A stretch of DNA of 64,000 nucleotides from Turnera subulata (taxonomy: Eukaryota > Streptophyta > Magnoliopsida > Malpighiales > Passifloraceae): NCBI GenBank assembly GCA_028386065.3, contig JAKUCV010007482.1, forward strand, positions 17,800-81,799, written 5' to 3'. A program made the position numbers and the translations under genes. The notes below the pieces were generated by a model. It was not told where the DNA came from. It saw nothing but the letters and a program-made list of their open reading frames with translations, and did no database searches. Positions 3,330-54,795 of this stretch are shown here, piece after piece (within the stretch, counting starts at the first letter, position 1; each line of letters starts with the position of its first letter).

Positions 3330-3556
3330 GTGAGTAACCATTAAGCTGTTATTTGTGAGTAATTAGTGATATGAAATTGCTGGCTGGTTGAGCCTGAGGA
3401 TTAATCTGAGATAATAAAAAGTTGAGTAATTGATGATAGAGTAATGGAATTGGAATTGAAATTAAGATGATGATATAATTGTCACGTGGAAAGTAGTGGT
3501 ACGACTAGATGGTTAGAGACTAGTTCAGTGGTGTCATGGCCGGTTTGGTTGGTTGA

Positions 3557-3694
3557 TGGGGATGTTGATCCCGGATGATGTTGTTATTGGGATGTTGATC
3601 CCGGATTTGTGATATTGGGATGTTGATCCCGGATTTGTTGATATTGGGATGTTGATCCCGGATTGTTGGTATTGGAGATGTTGATCCCGGATTG
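3557..3694 (+). repeat. Hairpin-unit tandem array GGGATGTTGATCCC (5 units)
   Basis: Each unit contains GGGAT-GTTG-ATCCC, a perfect 5-bp stem with a 4-base loop, spaced roughly 25-30 bases apart. The same array is in the 3' LTR (11158-11296) and, in diverged form, in solo LTR K (about 19616-19770), so it is a family feature and not a local accident. Confidence 0.85.
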
Positions 3695-3831
3695 TGATTT
3701 GGCCTGGCATCCAGAATTAGTGAATAACTAGGTACGACCCTAGATTGTCCAGTGACGGGGCCCGGTAGATAAAATTGGTAATAAAAATAATAAGCATTCT
3801 TTTGGTCTTGGCTTTGTTATGTTTTAGTAAG

Positions 3832-3900
3832 ATTCTTCTGTCGTGTTGTTTGTGTTGGATTCTTCTGTCATGTTGTTTGTATTGGATTCTTCTGTTGTGT
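3832..3900 (+). repeat. 27-bp tandem repeat in LTR B (3 copies)
   Basis: ATTCTTCTGTCGTGTTGTTTG-type units recur three times with a 27-base period. The homologous array in the 3' LTR is at about 11432-11508. The nine-residue repeats in the overlapping chance ORFs come from this array, not from a protein gene. Confidence 0.75.
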
Positions 3901-4365
3901 TGGTTGTGCTACTTCGAAAGTATTACGGTTGATTATATATCTCTGTTTATCCTTCGTCAGTGAGCACTTCGGAGTCACCCCTCGCCTGCGGGGTTTCATC
4001 CCGTAGGTTTGGTTGCTTCGTAGTTCAGGTACGATGTACGTTGGCTGCTGCTTTCTTCTCCACCTGATTCCGGATCCATACCTTCGTTGCATGTGCATTT
4101 AAGTCTTCCGCTGCTGTACCATATATTTTGTTGTGTTGCTGTTATCCTTTATAGCTTGTTGTTGTCTATTTGGATTAAGCTGTTGTTGTTGAGTGGATTG
4201 AATAATGGTCCCCGGGTATGGGAGACAGTTGTATTATATTCAGTGAAATGTTGTATTTGATTTACTGTGTAGTATTTTACTGCGATGTACTGTCTGTTCT
4301 ATCAATAAGAATAGTTTCGGCACGTGTTTACTGTCTATGGTGAATACGAGTCGGGGCGTTTCATT

Positions 4366-4438: not shown

Positions 4439-6334
4439 TTGTCACGACATGATATGACATGCATACATATACATTTTCATATAGGTACGAATGGATCCGG
4501 TTGGAGGGAATCAGCATGCTGGAGGCCACCTAATGACGATCAGGTATCGGTGGATCAACCGCAGCAAGTTGCGGGAGGTCCGGAACACCTTCCGAATATT
4601 CCTTTGGGAGACCCTACGCAGATGCTGAACGTGGTAACTCAGATACTGCGAAGGCAAGAAGCCAAGGATGCACGTATTGATGCTATGGGAGCCCGGGAAT
4701 AGGAAAATCAGGGACCAGTTGAGGATCCAGTGTACATGAAGCTGGGGAAGCTTGCGGCAGAGATCTTCACCGGTGTCACTACACCAGAGGATGCTGATCG
4801 ATGGCTCAGATAGATGAACAGGGTTATGCTGAAGCTGACATGTAAGAATGACAAGTGGGCCAGATATGCCGCTGTAATGTTCCGAGGGGATGCCGTTGAT
4901 TGATGGGAGTCTACCACCAGGGACATGCCGACACCTATCACTATGTCGTGGAACCAGTTCATGGAGAAGTTCCGAAGGAAGTTTGTTTCCGAGGCATACT
5001 AGGACCAGCTGAGACGGGAGTTTTTGGGACTACAACAGGGACCAGATCAGACGGTCAACGATTATGAGATCAAGTTCAACCGCCTGTCCATCTATGCCAG
5101 TGAGTTTGTGGCTACCCCGGAGGCCAGATGTAAACGTTTCTGGGATGGTCTTCGATCTGGCATCCAGACAGTTATGGGGTGCAAGGTCTACGAGACTGAC
5201 CAGGACATGCTGACAGATGCCCTGAGAGCTGAGATTATTTGGCTGGGTAATGAGAGGGAGCAACAGGAGATCCGTAAGAGACATGTCGCACAGAGTTCTG
5301 GGTGACAGAACAAGAGGTTCCAGACACCAGCGAATCGGTCAGGATATGGACAGAGCCGGTTCATGCCAGCTAGTCAGGGACGTGGATGAAACAACAACTA
5401 CAACAACCGAGGCAGTTCTTGGACTCAGTCTGGAGGGACTTTATCTTGGGGTGCTCGCCTGAGACCTCTTCTGTCTCAGGTGAGGTGTTATAAGTGTAAC
5501 GAAGTTGGGCACTACCGTTATGCTTGTCCCAAGTTGGGAAGATCTGGAGGTTCGGCACCTGTTCAGATGGTGCAAGCTTCAATTGCTAGTGTTCCTAGTG
5601 GTTCTGGAGTTGGCCGAGGCCGAGGACGTGGAGCTGTTCCTGCTAGGACCCAGTCAGCCATGAACCAGAGTACAACAGTGCCGAGAGCATTTGTGATCAC
5701 CGCTGATGAGGATCCAGAGAATGCTGATGTCATAGCAGGTACCTTTACAGTTTTTGGTAGTACTGCTTATACTTTGATAGACCCTGGTGCTACGCATTCG
5801 TTTATTGCGCAAAGCTTTGCCATACTACATAACTGTACGGGAGAGAGCTTAGCTTGTCCGATGAGGGTTAGGTTACCTGCGGGTATAGTGGTCAGATTAA
5901 CCCATGTGTGCAGAGACGTTTCGCTTTCATACGATAGCGAGGTTTTTCTTGCACGGTTGATTGTGATGAACATGGGAGGTTTTGATATCATCTTGGGGAT
6001 GGATTGGTTGTACAAGCACAGTGCTATGGTGAACTGTCGAACCAAGGAAGTGCTGTTGACTTCCGATGGTGGACATAAGATTTTGTTGACAAGTATTGGG
6101 AGAGCTGCTACTACATGTAGTATCTCTGCTAATCAGGATGTTGGGATGAAGCCGTTGGGCCCAGATTCTTTGTTGACCCACGTTAAGGGAGAAGAAGTTC
6201 AGACTCCGGTTTTGGGGGACATCATAGTTGTGAGGGAGTTTCCAGAAGTGTTTCCAGAGGACCTGCCAGGATTGCCACCTGACAGGGAAGTCAAGTATAC
6301 CATCGATTTGATGTCGGGAGTGACACCTATCTAG
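4439..6334 (+). pseudogene. gag-protease of element B (broken)
   Basis: One frame can be followed through the capsid region, a CCHC zinc knuckle (CYKCNEVGHYRYAC, about 5487-5528) and a retropepsin-like domain with the DPGATHSF motif near 5782, where this chromovirus clade has DPG in place of DTG/DSG. The frame has stops at 4700, 4811, 4901, 5000, 5303, 5387 and 6332. Gag would package element RNA and the protease would process the polyprotein. The frame runs directly into reverse transcriptase, as expected for a Gag-Pol polyprotein. ATGs at 4439 and 4491 are both possible original starts. Confidence 0.88.
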
Positions 6335-9104
6335 ATGGCACCGATAGAACTACAGGAGTTGAAGAAGCAGTTGGATGAGCTGCTTGAGAAGGGATTCATC
6401 AGACCTAGTACATCACCTTGGGGATCACCAGTCCTCTTTGTGAAGAAGAAGGATGGCAGTTTGCGGATGTGTGTGGACTACCGATAGTTGAACAAGGTGA
6501 CAGTGAAGAACAAGTACCCGCTTCCAAGGATTGATGACCTCTTTGATCAATTGCAGGGTGCTACTGTATTTTCTAAGATTGATCTTCGATCTGGCTACCA
6601 TCAGGTCAAGATTGCACAGAAGGACATACCGAAGATGGCCTTTTGTACTCGGTATGGGCATTTTGAGTTCACGGTGGTTCCTTTCGGTTTGACCAACGCA
6701 CCTGCAGTTTTCATGTGCTTGATGCACTTGGTCCTGAACGAGTTCTTGTACAAGTTTGTGGTAGTCTTCATCGACGACATTCTGATATACTCCAAGAGCA
6801 GGGAAGAACATGAGGAGCATCAGAGGGTAGTGCTACAGAGGCTGCGAGAGAAGGAGTTGTATGCTAAGTTTAGTAAGTGTGAGTTCTGGCTGGAGGAAGT
6901 TGCATTCCTTGGAATGTTGTATCCAGAGATGGGATTAAGTTGACCCTGCCAAAGTGAATGCTGTTCTAGAGTGGGAGCCGCCCAAGACGGTACCTGAAGT
7001 CAGAAGTTTTCTTGGCCTTGCAGGATATTACCGGAGATTCATCGAGGGTTTTTCCTTGATAGCCAGTCCCATGACCATGCTATTGAGGAAAGATCACACC
7101 TTTTATGGAGTGATGCCTGCCAAAGGAGTTTTGATGAACTGAAGAAGAAGTTGACAATAGCACCAGTCTTGATAGTACCTAAGCCCGGAGTAGAGTATGT
7201 GCTGTTTTGTGATGCTTCAGGTCTTGGTTTGGGAGCAGTTCTGATGCAAGAAGGCTGAGTGATTGCCTATGCTTCGAGACAGTTGAGACCACATGAGAAG
7301 AACTACCTGACACACGATCTAGAGATGGCCGCAGTGATCCTTGCTTTGAAGATTTGGCGACATTATCTGTTTGGAGAGAGATGCCGGATCTTCACAGATC
7401 ATAAGAGTCTCAAGTACATCATGACTCAGAAGGAGCTTAACCTACGACAAAGATGTTAGGTTGAGTTGCTGAATGATTATGATTGTACTATTGAGTATCA
7501 CCTTGGAAAAGCTAATGTTATAGCAGATGCCTTGAGCCGGAGACAGCCAGAAGATGCTTCCATAACCTACTCGGTGTCCTCACTCATCGAGTTAAGGAGG
7601 ATGGGAGTTGATTTGTCAGTGGATGAGACAGGAGCTTTTTTGACCCATATTGAAGTCAAGTCCAACCTGAGAGGCTAGATTGTGGAACTACAAGATAGAG
7701 ATCTCGACCTGATCAAGCTGAAGGAAGCAGTTCGTAGCGGAAGAGAAGACAAATTTTGTATAGCTAAGGATAGTGCATTGATGCTGGGGAAACGTCTATG
7801 TGTACCCACTATTGGTGACCTACGCAGTCAGATTTTGGAAGAAGAACATATGACGTCGTATGCTATGCACCCTAGGAGCACCAAGATGTATCAGAACTTG
7901 AGGAGTCATTTCTGGTGGCCACGTATGAAGAAGGATGTAGCCGAGTATGTGGCTAAGTGTATCACTTGTCAGCAAGTGAAAGCCGAGCATCAGGCTCCAG
8001 CAGGGAAGATGAGATCTTTGTCAGTGCCAGAGTGGAAGTGGGAGATGATCACTATGGATTTTGTGGTTGGATTACTGTTGACCCGGAGACAGCATGATGC
8101 CATCTGGGTTATCGTTGATCGACTTACAAAATCAGCTCATTTCCTTCCCATCCGACAGACAGATACTATGGATAAGTTGGCGAAACAGTATGTTGCAGAG
8201 ATTGTGAGACTACGTGGGATTCCTAAGTCCATAGTCTCAGACAGAGATCCGAGATTCACCTCACGGTTTTGAAAAGAGTCTGCAAGCAGCTTTGGGAACG
8301 AAGCTGAGTTTCAGTACCGCGTTTCATCCTCAGACAGACGGACAGTCAGAGAGGACTATTCAGACGCTAGAGGACATGTTAAGGGATTGTGCTCTTAATT
8401 TCAGTGGGAGTTGGGATCAGTATTTGTTTTTAGCGGAGTTCGTCTACAACAACAGTTTTCATTCCAGCATTGGCATGCCACCGTTTGAAGCTCTTTACGG
8501 ACGGAAATGCCGAAGTCCAGTATGTTGGGATGAAGAAGGTCTCCGTTTGATTGTGGGTCCAGAACTGGTCAAGCAAACAGTTGACAAGATTCAAGTAGTT
8601 AAGCAGAGTATGAGAGCAGCGCAAGACCGACAGAAGAGTTATGCTGATAAGCATCGCCGTGAGATGGAGTACCAAGTGGGAGAGAAAGTTTTCCTCCGAG
8701 TTGCACCATGGAAAGGTGTTATCAGATTCGGGAAAAGAGGGAAGTTGAGTCCCAGGTACATTGGACCATATGACATTGTAGAAAGGGTTGGACCCTTGGC
8801 ATACAGACTGTCTTTACCAGAGGAGTTGTCCCGGATTCATGATGTGTTTCATGTTTCCATGTTGAGGAGGTACAGATCCGATTCGAGTCATGTGGTTACT
8901 ACAGCAGATGTCGAGGTCCCAAAGGATCTTACGTACACAGAATTGCCGGAGCAGATCCTTGGTCGAGAGGTCAGACAGTTGAGAAACCGAGTCATACCGA
9001 TGGTAAAAGTCAAGTGGAGCAAGCACTCTGCGAACGAGTCTACATGGGAAGTTGAGGAGCACATGCGTTCTCAGTATCCGCACCTGTTTACAGCACCGGA
9101 GTGA
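6335..9104 (+). pseudogene. RT-RNase H-integrase-chromodomain of element B (broken)
   Basis: Reverse transcriptase shows the [10 protein letters not shown] catalytic box near 6769 after the VPFGLTNAP region. RNase H follows (CDAS near 7211, TDHKSL near 7396, ADALSRR near 7525). Integrase has the HHCC finger (about 7840-7975), the D,D residues in the TMDFV and SDRDPRF contexts, and the FHPQTDGQSE segment after 8320. The C-terminus carries the HDVFHVSMLRRY motif and a chromodomain ending at 9104. Stops lie at 6485, 7256, 7457 and 7676; frame changes occur near 6937, between about 7080 and 7105, and near 8271. Domain order and chromodomain place it among chromoviruses, most like Tekay/Del. Confidence 0.93.
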
Positions 9105-9140: not shown

Positions 9141-11964
9141 TGTAACAGCCCGGGTAATTTTTACGTTTTTACCGTCACCGTAAAATTTATTTTACAGTTA
9201 TTTACCATAAAAATTAATCTTGGGTAATTAATTTATGGTAATTCGTGCACCGGGTTCCGAAACCGAGCCTTGTCCCACGCTCGGGATTTTTCTGCGGATT
9301 TTCCGGACCAAGTTGGAATTTTTCGGGTCCAGGAATCTTCAGAAAAGTCATGATTAACCCCGAGTTATCAGACCAGAATAAAATCAAAGGGGGTGCATTA
9401 GTTACTTTCTGGTCCGGACGGGACACGCCCCACAAGCTGCACAACACGAGGCAGCCGCCACCTACTGTGAAGCTTCTGAGTGGACTGTGCCACCCGTGCT
9501 TTGATAGTTGTAGCCCATGAGTTCTTTCTTTTTCTTTTTCCTGCACCATCTCTTCATTTTCACTCTGCCTACAACCATCTCACCCTCTGCAATTCCCGTA
9601 ACCCCTTCCTGCAACTAAACCGAATATTGTAAAAAAAAACAACACACCTGCACCAAAAGCGCCGCCGTTTTCCCCCTCTTCCCTTCTTCTTTTCTTTTTT
9701 CTTTCTTCCCACCGTGAACCCACGCCGGCAGCCGCCTCCACCGAGACCATCCTCTCCCCACTTGCAACTCGAGTCGTCTCTCCTTTCTCCCTCGCTGCTG
9801 TCGTCCCCCCTGCACGCTGCCGCCGTCACGACGACCTGACGAGTCGAGCCGAACTCCTCTTGCTGTCGTGCATGCCGCCCGTTGCCGCCTCCTGCTGCAC
9901 CGCCATCTACAGCCACCAGCCAACGAGTGCCTCCCTCGTCCGATCTCCTCCCTCACGCCACCTTTCCGCCGTCGCGCCACCACCTGCACACCCAAGGTGA
10001 GCTGCAGACCCGCGTAGCAGTCAATCGGGTCGGGGTGACCCATTTCCTTCAGCCGGTGAGGGCTCGTGTCGCGCCAGCCTGGGCCTTAGACCTTGGGCCT
10101 GGGCTGTGAGTATGGGTTTGGTTAGTTGGGCTGAGTGGTTTGGAATGTGGGTTGGGCTGCTGGCCGTGGGCTATGTTCTGGGCCTGCACGTGGGCCTGCC
10201 CCTGGGCTCGTGTTTGGGGCCTGGGCTTGGCACTGTGCATGGCTTGATTTGGCACTATTTAGGCCCAGCCTAGATTTTAAAATAAAAAAGAAAATGAAAA
10301 TAAAATTAAATCTGGAAAAAAAATTATAATTCTGGAAAAATAAAATGTAAATTGTGGAAACAATATTTTGGAAAAATCTTGGGGAATAATAATATGGAAA
10401 AGAATATACAAATGGTAAATAATAATTTTGGAAAGCACATACTTGTAGAAAAAAATATATGGAAAGGGTATTATCAAAGTAGGTATTGTATAGGTATACG
10501 TATAAATATAGTATTATTTTAGACACTGGAAATAAATGGTGAATGATGATGATGATAGAAAATAACCCGGGGGAGTAACCGAGACGAGTCCGTATTTAAT
10601 TTCCGGTATACAGTAGTAGCATGACATTATATCACTTATGTGTGCATATTATTTGTTTGATATAGGAGTTGATAACGAGCAGATACCTGAGGAACCGGAC
10701 TTGGAGTCTGTGGGGCATTTCCAAACTTGATAATCGGCTAAGGTGAGGATGGATAACCTTGGATATGTGACTGTAATACTGTGTTTGATTTTGTTGTTTG
10801 ATTGAACTGCTGAATCGATTATTGGCTGTTATATGATTGCTATGGAAATTGTTGATGATTATTGTTTGCTATTTAATTGCTATGGATTTTGCCATGATGT
10901 TGCTGGAATGTGTTGTTAGATTGTGGTATTGTGAGTAACCATTGAGCTGTTATTTGTGAGTAATTAGTGATATGAAATTGTTGGCTGGTTGAGCCTGAGG
11001 ATTAATCTGAGATAATAAAAAGTTGAGTAATTGATGATAGAGTAATGGAATTGGAATTGAAATCAAGATGATGATATAATTATCACGTGGAAAGTAGTGG
11101 TACGACTAGATGGTTAGAGACTAGTTCTGTGGTGTCATGGCCGGTTTGGTTGGTTGATGGGGATGTTGATCCCAGATGATGTTGTTGTTGGGATGTTGAT
11201 CCCGGATTTGTGATATTGGGATGTTGATCCTGGATTTGTTAATATTGGGATGTTGATCCCGGATTGTTGGTATTGGGGATGTTGATCCCGGATTGTGATT
11301 TGGCCTGGCATCCAGAATTAGTTAATAACCAGGTACGACCTTAGATTGTCCAATGACGAGGCCCGAAAGATAAAATTGGTAATAAAAATAATAAGCATTC
11401 TTTTGGTCTTGGCTTTGTTATATTTTAGTAAGATTCTTCTGTCGTGTTGTTTGTGTTGGATTCTTCTGTCGTGTTGTTTGTGTTGGATTCTTCTGTTGTG
11501 TTGGTTGTGTTACTTCGAAAGTATTACGGTTGATTATATATCTCTGTTTATCCTTCGTCGGTGAGCACTTCGGACTCACCCCTCGCCTGCAGGGTTTCAT
11601 CCCGTAGGTTTGGTTGCTTCGTAGTTCAGGTACGATGTACATTGGCTGCTGCTTTCTTCTCCACCTGATTCCGGATCCAAACCTCCGTTGCATGTGCATT
11701 TAAGTCTTCCGCTGCTGTACCATATATGTTGTTGTGTTGCTGTTATCCTTTATAGCTTGTTGTTATCTATTTGGATTAAGCTGCTGTTGTTGAGTGGATT
11801 GAATAATGGTCCCCGGGTATGGGAGACAGTTGTATTATATTCAGTGAACTGTTGTATTTGATTTACTGTATAGTATTTTACTGCGATGTACTGTCTGTTC
11901 TATCAATAAGAATAGTTTCGGCACGTGTTTACTGTCTATGGTGAATACGGGTCGGGGCGTTTCA
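9141..11964 (+). repeat. Element B 3' LTR (2824 bp, complete)
   Basis: Preceded by GGGGACGAAATTCTTTTTAA and a short purine tract. Starts TGTAACAGCCCGGG and ends GGGGCGTTTCA. The five bases after it, ATAAT, are the expected target duplication; its partner is off the left edge. A GC- and proline-codon-rich segment (about 9540-10110) ends in a donor-like AAGGTGAGCT at 9994. The chance ORFs in this LTR look like none of the known retroelement proteins. Confidence 0.92.
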
Positions 11965-36225: not shown

Positions 36226-36817
36226 TCAAGTTAGATCTTTCAGATAATGGTTAAAAATGATAAAGATGCCCTTATGGTTTTTTAAAGGAACAATGGTCAT
36301 TTTATCCTTTAGTCACGTTTTCTTCCTGCATCTAGCTGAGCTATACTACCAACCTGCTCATCTAACTCCATTGTTGCCATGCCCATTCCTGAGCTTATAA
36401 ATAGAGCCGCCGAGCAGCAGCTCAAGCCATCCCAATATCCAACACTAGCCTCCCACTGATGTGTCAAATCTTCAAGCGCACATATTGCAGTAGCACACGT
36501 GGTCATATCCTCAAGGACTAGGCAAAATAATCAATTAAGAGACTCACTCTATTAGGCAGAAACCAGAAAATAAAATAACGAATTGGAGATTGTGATTTGA
36601 AATTGTGATCAACAATAAAGTAAACAATGATAAACTGTAAATAATATGAAAAGTTCAGATTATGGAAGAATTAGATCAGCCGGGGTTCACTACTCTATCC
36701 TTTTATGCATTAATTATCCTCCTAGATTCGTCAACAGGTAGACTCTGTTCCATGTCTGTGAATAAGGTGACACTGTTCACTAAAACCTACAGATTTCTTA
36801 TTCGATTTCTTGATGGG

Positions 36818-37758
36818 TGATGCAAATCACCTAGGCATGATTGGATATGGCAAGATTATCGTTAGAGGCATCAAAGAGGAGCATCGGTTTCACAAGAATT
36901 TCAAGAAGAGTTGGACATCAAAGCGAAGGACGCAAAGAACGCGTGCAGAAATTCCTGGATCGTGCAGTATCGGGAATAAATTCATATCTCGAGCTCTAAA
37001 ACTTGGATTGCTGCGATCTTGGACTCTCTGGAAAGATAAGACGAAGATCTACAACTTTTATGTTGAGCCCAGAAGCTGAATCGTCCGTTTTCCTTTACTA
37101 AAAGGCGCTTGAAGTCGACGGACAGATTCTGTCCGGAAATTCGGTTTAGTTTTTATTATTTGGGCTAAAGTGTTTTTAGTTGGGTTTTATTTGTAAATGT
37201 TTTAATTAGTGTCCAAGTTATGTGGGCTCAGTTTTAAACCTAGTCTATTTACGGTTACTATTCACGTGAATAGTACCCGCGTGAATAGTGACATAAAGTC
37301 TTTTATTTTAATCTAGTTACAAAGTCCAAGTCCATTAGGGTTTAGTATTAGACTAGTATAAATAGAGGGTCTTTCTATTGTTTTCGGGAGAGTTGATTAT
37401 TGATAATAAAATTTCCCATTGAGGTTTTCTTTGATTGTGGATTCAATCGTAGTTGAGAGTGGATTCTCTTGATTTTATATTAGGGTTTGAGTTTACTTAT
37501 CAAGTTCTTACTTGTGGCGTTTATTCAATTCCTTGTGATTCTAATCCCTTTGTTGCCTATTCCTTAATTGAGTCTAGGAGGTAAAGAATAGAATTGCTAA
37601 AACCCTTTGTTGTGTTTGTACTTCTTTGTTGTCTAATCCGGTGCAGAGATTAGAAGGTGAAGGAGACTTACTCGGCGAGTTTGATTGAGATTGACGATCG
37701 GGACGAACAGATAGTTACGGAGGTGGAACTAGTGGATTCTAGGGCTGTTGCCGTATCA
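36818..37758 (+). repeat. Element E left LTR (941 bp)
   Basis: Starts TGATGCAAATCACC, ends GTTGCCGTATCA, and is followed by a TGGTAGCGGAGC primer-binding site at 37764. Same family as the element D LTR. It has a 33-base segment (CTGTCCGGAAATTCGG..., about 37128-37160) that the right LTR lacks, which accounts for the whole length difference between the two. Confidence 0.9.
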
Positions 37759-37999
37759 TCTTTTGGTAGCGGAGCGAAGGTTTCAATCAATCATATCCTT
37801 TTGTGTTTGTGTTTTTAATTTCGTTCGTGGCCTTTTCAATTCTGTTGTCGATTTATTTAAGAAAAAAAAAAGTGTCGAGTACTGTTCATCGTTACTGTTC
37901 ACCGGTACTGTTCATCGGTACTGATCACAAAAAAAAAAGAGTTGAAAATCGACTTGTTGGAATTGTGGCCTTGAATTGCAAGATTATCAAGTGTTTCTT
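37759..37999 (+). repeat. Element E left leader with primer-binding site (241 bp)
   Basis: Begins with the primer-binding site and continues through a short GTACTGTTCATC-type minisatellite (about 37888-37926). The segment up to position 37999 (GTGTTTCTT) is repeated in inverted form at 39891-40183, where the minisatellite has more copies (293 bp in total). Confidence 0.85.
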
Positions 38000-38504
38000 G
38001 CAGGAAATTTTATTGGTTGATTGATTGATTGATTGAAAACAAGGAGAAGTTGGATTATTTGCTATTTGGGATCGATTTCTGCAGGGAAGATTTCTGCCGG
38101 ATTATTTCTTTGTTGAGTTCGATTTGAGCTTTCTATTGTGTTGGGTGATTGTTGTTTCATAATTGCTCAATTGTGCAGATAATCTTTCACATACTTATTC
38201 TTGTTCTTGTGTGTGATCAATCTTTTCTTTCTTGGTGTCGAAATTTGCCTCTAGAATTGATATCTTATCTTTCTTTCTTTAGGTTTCTTTGACTCCTTGA
38301 ATTAATTGCTGCTGGTTGGTTGCTTGATTGTGTTTATTTGAACCTAACGTATAAAATTGAAGCAGAATCAAGAGTGGTAAAAGGCTGAGTGTTACATCTA
38401 TTGCCATTGAGTGCAAACACGAGAGAACAATTCAAGAGAGTAAACACGTGAGGGAGTGGTGAGAAAATATTTTTCTACTAACACCTTCTTGCAGGTGATA
38501 CATC

Positions 38505-39236
38505 ATGGATGGTTCTAGTGATGATGATAGGCCTGCTACTATGGCGGATTTTCTGGAGATGCTCCAACGATTGGATATGTCATTTAAAGAGGCGATTGAT
38601 CGGATGAATAGGCATGTGCTTGATACTCAAGTCAAGGAAGATGGAGTTGAGCAGAGGGAGAATCTTTTTCAAACTAGATGTTTGATTAGTGACAAGGCAC
38701 ATAGCATGATCATGGATGGGGGAAGCCACACCAATATGGCAAGCACATATATGGTGGAAAGTTTAGGATTGGAATGTTTGGAGCATCCTAGACCCTATCG
38801 GCTACAAAGGACGAGTGACATGGGAGCAATTGAGGTAACCAAACAAGTCCTTGTTTCTTTTTCCATTGGCCGGTATTTTGACCAAGTGTTGTGTGATGTT
38901 GTGCCTATGGATACATGCCATATATTGCTTGGGAGACCATGGCAATATGATAGGAATGTGGTACATGATGGTCGAAGAAATAGGTATACATTCACCATGG
39001 GTGAAAGGCCAATAACGCTTGGGCCACTGCCACGCACGGAAGTTTATAAGGATCAATTGCATGTTAAAAGTCAAGTGGAAGCATGGCAAGCCGAGAAGGC
39101 CAAAGCTCAAGCAAAGCATGATGACTTTGAAGAGGGCTTTAAGAGAATAGATGAAGCTGCTACTAAATTTTTGAAGTCATTCGAAGAACTTTGGATAAGA
39201 GAGGAAGAGAGGGAGGCTGAGAGCCTTGCAAAATGA
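38505..39236 (+). CDS. Element E gag-N-terminus/protease remnant ORF (243 aa)
   Basis: Begins MDGSSDDDRPATMADF, a gag-like N-terminal stretch, and by residue about 60 enters a retropepsin-like domain: IMDGGSHTNMAS (with DGG at the catalytic position, as is usual in this gypsy lineage), VTKQVLVSFSIG, CDVVPMDTCHILLGRPW. The capsid body and zinc knuckle expected between them are absent. The frame then runs into a charged linker and stops at 39236. Intact length and open frame suggest an internally deleted, non-autonomous derivative. Confidence 0.78.
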   Translation: MDGSSDDDRPATMADFLEMLQRLDMSFKEAIDRMNRHVLDTQVKEDGVEQRENLFQTRCLISDKAHSMIMDGGSHTNMASTYMVESLGLECLEHPRPYRLQRTSDMGAIEVTKQVLVSFSIGRYFDQVLCDVVPMDTCHILLGRPWQYDRNVVHDGRRNRYTFTMGERPITLGPLPRTEVYKDQLHVKSQVEAWQAEKAKAQAKHDDFEEGFKRIDEAATKFLKSFEELWIREEEREAESLAK

Positions 39237-39890
39237 GAGGAGAGCTCAAAAGAAAAATTTGAGGGGAAAGAAAAGAAAGAGGAAGCCGAGAGTGAGAGAA
39301 GAAAAGAGATAAAAGAAGCCTCAAAAGAAATTGTTTTAAAAGGCTCAAATGAGAGAGATGTGAGGGTTGAATATAAGGAAAAGAAGAGTTTGTTTGTACT
39401 CTTGTACAAAGAGGCTTGGTTTAAAGCTAATATTAACCCTTGTCTTTTTAGATGTGAAGTGTTTCTTTTGCAGGTTCCTAAGGATGCTTGTCTTAAAGGA
39501 TCGCCGGTCCTAGAAGAAGATGGAACTATATATAGGGCGCCGATTACAATCAAAAGGGAGCATCAGGTTTTAAGTTCCTTTTCTATGACTTTAATGCCTA
39601 AATTAGACAACATGATAAGTAATTTAAATGCTTGTTTCATTAATTATCATCCATATGAATTACTTGTTACGCATGCTTCTGAGTTAATCTTTAGGGATGA
39701 ACAAAAGAGTGCTAATTGTGTTATGCTTGAACAGGGAGGAGAAGCTAGGTGCCTCAAGCTTGGTCCTCTGCGCATTAAGATTGGTTCACAAGGTGAGTAT
39801 AATGTTCATACTATTTTTGATGTTGCTGAATTTTCTCCTATTGATTTTGTAGGAATCGATTCGAGGACGAATCGCTTTGAGGAGGGAGGG
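39237..39890 (+). pseudogene. Element E pol-linker and pol 3'-end remnant with polypurine tract
   Basis: The frame open from 39360 starts with a KKSLFVLLYKEAWF segment, the linker usually found between protease and reverse transcriptase. It ends with FDVAEFSPIDFVGIDSRTN, the segment that ends pol in this lineage (compare element D). No RT, RNase H or integrase catalytic motif lies between, so pol is deleted. It finishes at a polypurine tract GAGGAGGGAGGG (39879-39890), after which the inverted leader starts at once. Middle residues are unassigned. Confidence 0.7.
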
Positions 39891-41091
39891 AAGAAACACT
39901 TGATAATCTTGCAATTCAAGGCCACAATTCCAACAACTCGATTTTCAACTCTTTTTTTTTTTTGTGAACAGTACCGATGAACAATAACGGTGAACAGTAC
40001 CGATGAACAGTAACGGTGAACAGTATCGATGAACAGTATGGTGAACAGTACGATAAACAGTACTCGACACTTTTTTTTTTCTTACATAAATAGACAACAG
40101 AATTGAAAAGACCACGAACGAAATTAAAAACACAAACACAAAAGGATATAATTGATTGAAACCTTCGCTTCGCTACCAAAAGATGATACGGCAACAGCCC
40201 TAGAATCCACTAGTTCCACCTCCGTAACTATCTGTTCGTCCCGATCGTCAATCTCAATCAAACTCGCCGAGTAAGTCTCCTTCACCTTCTAATCTCTGCA
40301 CCAGATTAGACAACAAAGAAGTACAAACACAACAAAGGGTTTTAGCAATTCTATTCTTTACCTCCTAGACTCAATTAAGGAATAGGCAACAAAGGGATTA
40401 GAATCACAAGGAATTGAATAAACGCCACAAGTAAGAACTTGATAAGTAAACTCAAACCCTAATATAAAATCAAGAGTATCCACTCTCAATTACGATTGAA
40501 TCCACAATCAAAGAAATCCTTAATGGGCAATTTTATTATCAATAATCAACTCTGCCGAAAACAATAGAAAGACCCTCTATTTATACTAGTCTAATACTAA
40601 ACCCTAATGGACTTGGACTTTGTAACTAGATTAAAATAAAAGACTTTATGTCACTATTCACGCGGGTACTATTCACGTGAATAGTAACCGTAAATAGACT
40701 AGGTTTAAAACTGAGCCCACATAACTTGGACACTAATTAAAACCTTTACAAATAAAACCCAACTAAAAACACTTTAGCCCAATCTGTCCGTCTACTTCAA
40801 GCGCCTTTTAGTAAAGGAAAACGGACGATTCAGCTTCTGGGCTCAACATAAAAGTTGTAGATCTTTGTCTTATCTTTCCATAGAGTGCAAGATCGCAGCA
40901 ATCCGAGTTGTAGAGCTTGAGATATGAATTTATTCCCGATACTGCACGATCCAGGAATTTCTGCACGCGTTCTTTGCGTCCTTCGCTTTGATGTCCAACT
41001 CTTCCTGAAATTCTTGTGAAACCGATGCTCCTCTTTGATGCCTCTAAAGATAATCTTGCCATATCCAATCATGCCTAGGTGATTTGCATCA
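39891..41091 (-). repeat. Element E right arm: inverted leader (39891-40183) and inverted LTR (40184-41091)
   Basis: The complement of this arm matches 36818-37999 closely along its whole length, apart from the 33-base LTR gap, minisatellite copy number and scattered substitutions. The arm begins at the exact base after the polypurine tract, where a normal 3' LTR should start. Confidence 0.9.
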
Positions 41092-42117
41092 ATGGGTAAC
41101 AACCTAGGGTAAGATCATCAACTTTTGGAAGTATAATCTCATCTTAAAGGTCAATTTTACTACTGTCGTAGATCAAACCTATTCCTAAGAGCAATGATGT
41201 TCTTTGTTTTTACTTTTTCCATAATAATCTACCACCTTTCACCACCTAGATTAGGGTTGATTTATGTTGTTCCGGAATTAAACTTCTCCTTTCGGTATTT
41301 AGTTTAAAACCTAAGACAAGAAATAAAGATGGCCAGTCTCAATTCTCGGATTAAGCACACATAAATCAATCAAGAAAACCAAATAAAATAAACTGTCAAG
41401 GAGTAATTAAACCACAAAAGTATTCAAGTAGCTATATCCCTTATGATCTAGAAAAGAGAATTTAGTTCATAGCAAAATAGAAAATAAACATGGAGAAATT
41501 ATTCTTAACAAACCGAAACTAGAACTAGCAAAAACTCCATAAAGGATCCTCTGCCTTCAAGTTGCTGCTGTCGTCCAGAATAATATATCTTTCTGCTGCA
41601 ACCGACTTCTTCTTTTTATCCTTTGGAAACCCTAGCACTAATTTCTAAAAGTTAGCTCGGCTAGCTAAAATCTCGAAATTAATGTTTCTAGGATTCTTCT
41701 CTTATTTCAACAGCAGCAGGTTTTCTTTCTTTAATAGGAGTGGCCCCTAAGTTGGTGAGTTAATAGATCTCCAAATAAATAGCAAGCAATCTTGACGCAA
41801 AAAATATAATAAACTTCAGGTTTTGTTCTGCGGGACGCAACAGAGTCACTCTGTTGAAAACTCTTTGACAGGAAATCATCAACAAATCAGCTTCAATCCA
41901 TCCAGAAATCCACAAAGAGCTTGAATCCCACGAAACATAGGTTATTTTGCATCAAAAGGCACCTGAAAACAAAAATCGATTAGCAAAGGCAATCCTAGTG
42001 AGCATTAAACTAAAACAGTGAATAAAATGCATGATTCTTAACTAAATGCTTGGCCAGAAAGGATATTTAATGCTCTAATTACTACATGATGTGCACACAT
42101 ATCACCCACTACCTAGA

Positions 42118-45875: not shown

Positions 45876-45934
<59 letters not shown>

Positions 45935-47464
45935 TAAATATGTATTTCGATAAATAATTCAAAATTTATGTACAAGGCATAACCGAGACAAAACATAGGT
46001 AATTACCGTCTAACAGTCGTAGAACGAGAAATATATTCGTTGGACAGAATCCGAGCCTTCGCCGGAAAATTCCCGAGCCTCGCCGGATTCCGGTCAACTC
46101 GCCAGAGACTTCCACATTGCCGCCGAAAACAGCCGCTACCCACTGCCATCATCCAAAAAGTCACCCAACCCTAAAAACTCAATTCAATACACACCCACAG
46201 AATTCCAATTCATCCTTATTTTTTCCACATTGACAGGCATCAACGTCCAATTGAAAACTGAAAAAAAAATGGGTGAGTAGAAGCTTACCGGAAAATACAA
46301 CCCACTGCCAAATCAAGACCTGTGAATGGCAGCAACCCGAACACACACACACCGCCAGAACAGTCCGCAGCAGCAACCTTCAAACCGTCGAGCCAGCAGC
46401 AACTCTGCCCAGCACGACCCGCACCAACAGCACCAAATCCGGCAACATGAACCCGAACACCACAACCCAACACCGCCACCAAGCCACCACAATACACACA
46501 CCGACAACACAACCCGTCACCACCATTGAACAACAAGACCGCCACATCATCAATCCGTCTCCATAAACGAAAAGAAGGAGAAGAGGAGGGACGACGGAGA
46601 TACTCACCAAACGATGGCGGTACAAGTTCAGCTTGTTCGCAGCCTTGTCTTCTTTCCAACATGCCCGTCGAATACAAACACACAGCACGCACAACGCACA
46701 CCCAATTAAAGCCAATCCAAGGAGGTAAACTGAGGGAGAAAGCAGAAGGGACGACGCTTACCAGTGAGGAAGCGAATCGCCTTGAACTCGCCTCGAGTCC
46801 CCCGTAGTCGGTCCTTGGATGGCGTGCTCGTCTCCGACCTCGATGCAGCAAGGAGTTGCCTACCTAGCTCGTGGATGCAGCGGCGATAAGCGAAGGAGAA
46901 GATGACCGACAACAGCGTGAAGGAAAGAGGAGGAGTGAGGGGTTTGGAATGAAATCGAAAAGGGAAGAAGAAGAAGAAGAAGAGACCGAAAAAGAAAAGG
47001 GAGGGGTGGTGGGGTATCATGCCGTTGACGGCATGATTGAAGGCAGAACGTGGGAGACAATACCGTTGAGGATGGCGGCGGCAGAGTGGAGAAGGAACGG
47101 GAAGAAAGAAAAAGAAAAGAGAAGGAGAAAAGAAAGAAAGAAAAGAAGAAGAGGAAGAAGGACGCGCGCCTGGCTGGGCTTGACTGAGCCAGCCAGATGA
47201 CGTGTCGTCTGGTTTGGCTTGGTCAACCCGCCAGGTTGACTTTTTTTTTTCAAAACCTAAAACGACGTAGTTTAACCTAAAACTACGATAAACCTTGTGT
47301 TTCATCCCGAAACGCATTTTAGGTCCGACAAATCTCAAAAGCGACATATTACCACTTATAATTAATAAATACAATGGATAAATAAATTAATTTTATTTCC
47401 ATTTCCGAAATCTAAATTTTTTTTTCTCATAAATCAAAAAAAATGAGAAAACCGGGGCGTTACA
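44046..47464 (-). mobile_element. Solo LTR J (3419 bp, minus strand), TSD AGATA
   Basis: Minus strand starts TGTAACGCCCCGG (47464) and ends GGCCTTCACA (44046). AGATA flanks it at 44041-44045 and 47465-47469. Its left and right flanks join into continuous LTR F sequence. It includes (ATT)n near 44687, a long (TA)n run at 45879-45930, and a GC- and proline/serine-codon-rich portion (about 46290-47200) with donor-like TGGTAAGC sites on the minus strand. The several long ORFs there overlap on both strands and look like composition artefacts. Confidence 0.88.
45879..45930. repeat. (TA)26 microsatellite
   Basis: Uninterrupted 52-base TA run inside solo LTR J. Confidence 0.95.
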
Positions 47465-54096: not shown

Positions 54097-54279
54097 AAGA
54101 GCCCTTTATGTTTTGAAATTCCAATTGATGTGATTTGAGTGCATTTCATGCATAGATCCCATGCATTTTAAGGAACTTGGCATTCACAATCTGTTCATAT
54201 AGTGGTTAAGTCATAGAGCATATGCATCTCATACATCAACGGGCTACCTTGATATCGAAATTCAAGAGGACGCCCATAA

Positions 54280-54795
54280 GGTTCTTCTCTCAACGGGACC
54301 TCACGAGACGGGACATCCTCTAAGGAACACCCAAGGTTGCCCCATCTCTTAACGGGGCACTTACACAGGAGGTCCATCCCTTAATAGGACCTCATCAGAT
54401 GGGACATCCTCTAAGTAACACCCAAGGCTGCCCACCTCTTAAACGGGGCACCTACACATGAAGTTCATCTCTTAACGGGACCTCACGGGACGGGACATCC
54501 TCTAAGGAACACCCAAGGCTACCCATCTCTTAACGGGGCACCTACATATGAGGTTCATCTCTTAAACGGGACCTCACGAGACGAGACATCCTCTAAGGAA
54601 CACCCAAGGCTGCCCATATTTTAACAAGGCACTAACACAGGAGGTCCATCCCTTAAAAGGACCTCATCAGATGGGACATCATCCTAAGAACACCCAAGGC
54701 TGCCCATCTCTGATTGAGGCATCTGCAAAGAAAGTCCATCTCTTAATAGGGCACCTATATAAAAGGTTTATCTCTTAAAGGAACCTCGCGCTCAC
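54280..54795 (+). repeat. 91-bp tandem array after pol of element G (about 5.5 copies)
   Basis: Units begin at about 54280, 54371, 54463, 54553, 54644 and 54734, with a shortened one at 54765. Each carries CATCTCTTAACGGGACCTCA, GGGACATCCTCTAAGGAACA and CCCAAGGCTGCCCATC. Tat-lineage elements commonly carry tandem arrays between pol and the 3' LTR. Confidence 0.88.

Follow-up and report, generated by a model that had tools for sequence, protein, structure and literature searches.

The window analysed here, a 64-kb stretch of the Turnera subulata genome (contig C6764, positions 17800-81799, in a draft assembly of 518.7 Mb and 7125 contigs), contains a long terminal repeat (LTR) retrotransposon that carries its two LTRs in inverted orientation. 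One GH43-like protein, judged on the best 120 of 7933 matches listed, has its highest-ranking named matches, at up to 87%, in several flowering plants. The element spans window positions 36818-41091 (4274 bp) and is flanked on both sides by ATGGG, and both of its outer termini are U3 (unique 3′) ends. Together with four other elements of the same kind found elsewhere in the assembly, it confirms that the U3-U3 structure is real and recurs in this genome rather than being a one-off. Integration of U3-U3 DNA in one step is well supported, because the 5-bp duplications match. The window element is likely to be a by-product of reverse transcription, inserted by integrase in a single step; its family is non-autonomous and probably gypsy-type. 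Within that account, a switch by the polymerase, the polarity of the switch and the use of two different templates are what we infer.

From the outside inwards, the left copy of the target-site duplication (36813..36817) is followed by the left LTR (36818..37758, forward strand, 941 bp) with U3 outermost. This LTR runs from TGATGCAAATC to GCCGTATCA; its boundaries match those of the LTRs of a related locus, L012, and LTRs at other places in the genome are 97-98% identical to it. Next come the primer-binding-site (PBS)-like sequence TCTTTTGGTAGCG and a leader, which together form the inner part of the left arm as far as the point where homology to the right arm stops (37759..37999, forward strand). 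The single-copy internal region (38000..39892, forward strand) matches that of L012 and is complete down to the polypurine tract (PPT), GAGGAGGGAGGGAA, at 39879..39892 on the forward strand; the same stretch precedes the 3′ LTR in L012 and in two further copies, L009 and L014. At the junction, the AA at 39891..39892 is common to the end of the PPT and the start of an inverted leader, which with its PBS-like site occupies 39891..40183 on the reverse strand. The right LTR (40184..41091, reverse strand, 908 bp), again with U3 outermost, lacks 33 bp of the left LTR, and the right copy of the duplication follows at 41092..41096. The sequence TCTTTTGGTAGCG lies on the inner side of both window LTRs and also follows the LTR in the relatives, and the LTR ends are of integrase type (TGATGC...TATCA plus the 5-bp duplication). 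The initial annotation of this DNA had described head-to-head LTRs, each with a PBS-like site and leader on the inside and ATGGG on the outside, and its coordinates are confirmed; its statement that both integrated termini are U3 is borne out by the orientation and ends of the window LTRs.

The two arms are inverted repeats of one another. BLAST returns blocks of 97.5% (769 bp), 97.1% (311 bp) and 94.3% (122 bp) identity, and over their whole length, in an alignment covering 1182 and 1201 bp, the arms are 91.0% identical counting gaps. Within the LTRs the comparison covers 908 bases, of which 17 differ. The 33 bp missing from the right arm correspond to 37127-37159 of the left; this stretch begins inside a U3 inverted repeat, CGGACAG-ATT-CTGTCCG, at 37118-37134. 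Two frames of the element were scanned for protein domains. Apart from a weak aspartic-protease match at 38499-39236 (Pfam Asp_protease_2, E 0.0053, 17.9 bits, under the cut-off of 24.3), they contain no domain match, tyrosine recombinase included, and no polymerase; the element is non-autonomous. On this footing a gypsy-type family is probable.

L012 (C6273:13132-16987) provides the normal counterpart. Its LTRs are in direct order, with U3 at one outer end and U5 (unique 5′) at the other, around the same leader and body, and it has a duplication of its own, CATTA; the window element departs from this arrangement in the orientation of its LTRs and in having U3 at both ends. The internal regions of the two differ by 28 substitutions in 1753 bases, and L012 in addition has gaps of 1 and 139 bp. 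In L012, L009 and L014 the PPT, TTTGAGGAGGGAGGGAA, runs straight into TGATGCAAATC, with which the 3′ LTR begins. The PPT of the window element is likewise intact to its last A, and what follows it there is GAAACACTTGATAATC, the reverse complement of the leader. The 3′ LTR is thus missing to the base after the PPT, and an inverted leader-PBS-LTR stands in its place. This inner junction, at which the microhomology amounts to the 2 nt AA, falls precisely where the PPT meets the 3′ LTR in three other copies and occurs once in the genome when up to 3 mismatches are allowed.

To find further cases, outer U3 ends were surveyed as exact copies of the terminal 18 bases with an outer flank other than AA, a condition that drops the copies lying behind a PPT. 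The 18-base end was used in place of a whole-LTR search (40 of 2901 candidates scored), which would miss the element on contig C708. At up to 2 mismatches the 18-base end matches 706 places, and the full listing comprises the 156 exact, non-AA-flanked ends on 138 contigs, 76 of them flanked by C or G, 53 by T and 27 by an A that follows a non-A base. Five head-to-head U3 pairs no more than 5 kb apart are present among these 156 ends, and all five have identical 5-bp flanks. Uniform random placement of the ends would give about 0.06 such pairs, and about 0.00006 with matching 5-bp flanks. The same 156 ends include no tail-to-tail pair within 5 kb, the nearest being 6.8 and 7.6 kb apart. U3-U3 elements therefore make up some 3% (5 of at most 151) of the exact-ended insertions, a rough figure; as the survey covers exact ends with flanks other than AA, five pairs is a lower bound. 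With L012 carrying direct LTRs and inverted pairs numbering five among at most 151 insertions, terminal inverted repeats are not the normal form of this family.

The matching flanks bear directly on whether the structure could have arisen after integration, by deletion or inversion fusing two neighbouring elements of opposite orientation. Opposite neighbours do exist. The next head-to-head pair, on contig C439, is 7.3 kb apart; its flanks differ (CCACA and TGATG), and its U5 ends are positioned as for two ordinary insertions. Independent insertions would, however, match in their flanks by chance in only about 1 of 1024 cases, whereas here all five match, and a rearrangement would not place the inner junction on the PPT/U3 base. 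We regard such an origin as highly improbable. The earlier proposal that the palindromic DNA predates integration and was inserted as a unit is upheld by the ATGGG duplication, by the PPT-exact junction and by the agreement of flanks in five pairs out of five.

The insides of the other four elements are varied. On C3866 (CTTTG flanks, 2540 bp, no undetermined bases, N) a full LTR is followed by a PBS-like site, then by some 350 nt that represent leader or added sequence, and then by a full inverted LTR. The last third of this inner stretch has no match among the family loci compared, the inverted LTR meets the stretch at its U5 terminus or one base beyond, and the arms differ at 33 of 1094 bases. 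On C708 (locus L013; GTATA flanks, 1190 bp, no N) a full LTR preceded by GTATA continues into the leader and then into 18 nt of inverted U3 beside the second GTATA, with an apparent brief slippage back to the ACTGTTC repeats just before the inverted U3. The element on C309 (locus L041; AACTA flanks, 619 bp) consists of two U3 pieces of about 310 bp that join near the U3 inverted repeat CGGACAG/CTGTCCG. That on C1155 (AGAGA flanks, 3172 bp including 2585 N) shows two U3 starts with the N gap between them, in AG-rich surroundings. All four elements with a known inside, the window element among them, fit a formula in which U3-to-x is joined to U3-to-y in reverse.

Assembly blemishes affect two of the five pairs, C309 and C1155, and the possibility that the whole structure is an error of the draft genome has to be considered in their light. 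The assembly does contain N gaps, the 2585 N of C1155 being one instance, and on C309 105 bp of the left arm (1594-1698) equal the unreversed complement of the other arm at 104 of 105 positions. No cell makes such a sequence; it is an error introduced into a palindrome during assembly or gap filling. The left arm of C309, initially 78% identical, had been taken for a second subfamily, an idea that was dropped once these 105 bp were recognized as misassembled. The elements in the window, on C708 and on C3866, by contrast, have no N and no complement-only 20-mers, and the entire 64-kb window has an N count of 0. Moreover, matching 5-bp flanks and a junction on the PPT/U3 base are not what an assembly error would produce, and an overlap of 2 nt would not suffice to join two sequences. 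As an explanation, an error is very improbable.

The inner joins also speak to autointegration, in which integrase joins an LTR end to DNA of the same element, and to which the initial annotation had linked the window element. Strand transfer of this kind would place an LTR terminus at the inner junction. The window element has none there, since its PPT joins the leader directly; for this element the link is not supported. The inner joins of C708 and C309 are likewise without an LTR terminus. C3866 alone among the four known insides has the form that autointegration would leave, its inverted LTR meeting the leader at the U5 terminus. We see very little likelihood of this route.

Synthesis of plus-strand DNA in LTR elements begins with the first base of U3, adjacent to the PPT, and the PPT/TGATG boundary fits such a start. 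In the scheme that we favour, a first plus strand would comprise U3, R, U5, PBS, leader and body and end exactly at the PPT/U3 boundary, a stop to be expected if it failed to displace an older, U3-primed strand. It would then be joined, through the 2-nt homology, to a second plus-sense strand inside the leader, and copying would continue in reverse as far as the U3 at which this second strand had begun. It could just as well be the second strand, halted within the leader, that jumped onto the 3′ end of the first. Either way the double-stranded product would carry a U3 terminus at each end, and for the window element x would be the last PPT base and y would lie in the leader, 241 nt beyond the LTR. 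The U3 and U5 termini share their first bases (TGATGC and, read inward, TGATAC), and integrase could for this reason insert DNA that ends in U3 on both sides and still produce the normal 5-bp duplication. Plus-strand synthesis is described as discontinuous in avian retroviruses in the relevant passages of PMC3187697.

The same intermediate could be sealed by the cell. In that case two broken cDNA fragments, one ending at the PPT/U3 gap and the other in the leader, would be united by end joining before integration through their two U3 ends, an account that differs from the switch in the joining enzyme alone. Homology of 2 nt at the junction is what microhomology joining would leave, but template switching would leave it too. 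For one of the breaks to lie precisely on the PPT/U3 base, the plus strand must in any event be discontinuous at that point, and the apparent second small switch in C708 is more polymerase-like. Cellular joining is, in our estimation, unlikely, though less so than rearrangement, assembly error or autointegration.

Of greater weight is the suggestion that the plus-strand 3′ end snapped back onto its own leader and copied itself, so that both arms would descend from one parent and differ by later mutations only. This would be the simplest route to an inverted repeat, and the join of C309 lies near a small U3 inverted repeat where folding back would be easy. The differences between the arms bear on whether one template or two were used. 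For seven of the 17 LTR differences between the window arms, each of the two states is also present among the family's other copies; in the LTR pair of L012 the corresponding number is 2 of 14. No state common to both window arms is rare in the family (present in two others or fewer). The approximately unbiased (AU) test, which was rerun without the second copy at locus L010 (contig C993), rejects the window arms as sisters (p 0.014 and 0.013), whereas the L012 pair is recovered as sisters (99%) and forcing its sisterhood costs nothing. These comparisons suggest that the window arms may come from two parents, and a snap-back, while possible, appears rather unlikely. L010 had also been considered as a normal two-LTR control, and was dropped once its LTR proved to be a solo copy in a segment that is duplicated in tandem.

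Several observations weigh against the reading of a polymerase switch between two plus strands. The U5 junction of C3866 is one of them. The Kishino-Hasegawa (KH) and Shimodaira-Hasegawa (SH) tests do not reject sister arms in the window element (p ~0.11), as a snap-back would have it, and the case for two templates has one control pair, L012. The joins in C309 and C708 are not at natural plus-strand ends. The AGAGA duplication of C1155 is weaker evidence than the others, with its 2585 N inside and its AG-rich flank. If the joined parts are plus strands, U5-U5 elements should be absent, and in favour of the switch no outward U5-U5 pair within 20 kb was present among 100 listed of 188 outer U5 ends. 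Counted by ends, this control gives 10 of 156 versus 0 of 100 (p 0.007); counted by insertions, it gives 5 of 151 versus 0 of 100, which is not significant (p 0.16). At 100 of 188 ends it is too small to decide the matter and is suggestive only.

Inverted terminal arms are known from several other kinds of element. Long terminal inverted repeat (TIR) and foldback DNA transposons combine long inverted terminal repeats with a short duplication. The window element is unlike these in that its arms are made up of LTR and leader, and the same LTR is a direct repeat in its relatives. Unintegrated retroviral DNAs can contain inverted segments, and integration using two U3 ends occurs in vitro; such inverted-LTR or U3-U3 products are circular or formed in vitro, whereas the window element is integrated with a duplication. 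DIRS-type retrotransposons are not known to make a target-site duplication, and in this the window element, with its 5 bp, again differs. It does resemble them in having inverted LTRs, which are the normal form in DIRS elements as outlined for Dictyostelium DIRS-1 in the relevant part of PMC5633606. There, however, a tyrosine recombinase and a circular intermediate are involved, whereas the relatives of the window element have direct LTRs, a PPT and 5-bp duplications.

The closest published case found is that of the Triticeae complex LTR elements, which, in the sections of Sabot & Schulman 2007 (PMC1950507) that deal with them, have three direct LTRs and one duplication, with template switching invoked. 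Like the window element they represent an abnormal product of reverse transcription, inserted once, with one 5-bp duplication around the whole; their three LTRs, however, are direct, they contain two internal regions and their outer ends are the normal U3 and U5, in contrast to the inverted LTRs and U3-U3 ends seen here. For the locust Gypsy-25 (PMC8786324), the classic structure is said to have an inverted LTR pair, possibly through loose wording, and the passages of that paper on inverted LTRs give no duplication or mechanism. In the literature searched, from which subscription journals were mostly absent, no clear description of integrated U3-U3 elements was found; the phrase 'LTRs in opposite orientation' occurs in PMC2151762. 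The initial annotation had called the form rarely if ever described; the literature searched speaks against this at most in the locust statement, and within this one genome the structure recurs.

It is conceivable, and we offer the idea tentatively, that LTR retrotransposition regularly yields U3-U3 integrants as a side product, formed from plus-sense DNAs joined 3′ to 3′, with outer ends that are always U3 and never U5. They would then be fossils of unfinished plus strands, their inner breakpoints marking plus-strand ends, and their LTR hairpins could trigger silencing of the whole family. If so, a pair of U3 ends is a usable substrate for integrase in a living plant, abnormal products of plus-strand synthesis can reach fixation in a genome, and the inner breakpoints record plus-strand ends that are otherwise studied in unintegrated DNA. 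Programs that detect LTR elements search for direct repeats, so that the U3-U3 class has probably escaped them or been classified among TIR elements; a scan for it would be feasible in any plant genome sequenced with long reads. Transcription through the window copy could yield an RNA that folds back as an LTR hairpin, each arm measuring about 1.2 kb. For Arabidopsis EVD, the pertinent passages of PMC11624286 suggest LTR hairpins arising from head-to-head insertions as a possible silencing trigger.

Other repeats were observed alongside these elements. At L010, the region 2184-8501 of C993 comprises a solo LTR of the family in a tandemly repeated segment, two units of which carry the solo LTR; at least one stretch, 7225-8501, matches the sequence beyond the solo LTR and is without an LTR, and the locus thus shows both a natural empty site and a duplicated insertion. 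The window itself contains a direct repeat of 1034 bp (3330-4363 and 10931-11964, 96.8% identical). Long open frames enclosed between the two 1034-bp copies, at 5390-6334 and 8235-9104, look by eye gag-protease-like and integrase-like and suggest another LTR element. Many overlapping self-complementary matches mark a simple palindromic repeat at 45878-45945, and at 54275-54787 there is a tandem repeat with copies that are 81-86% identical.

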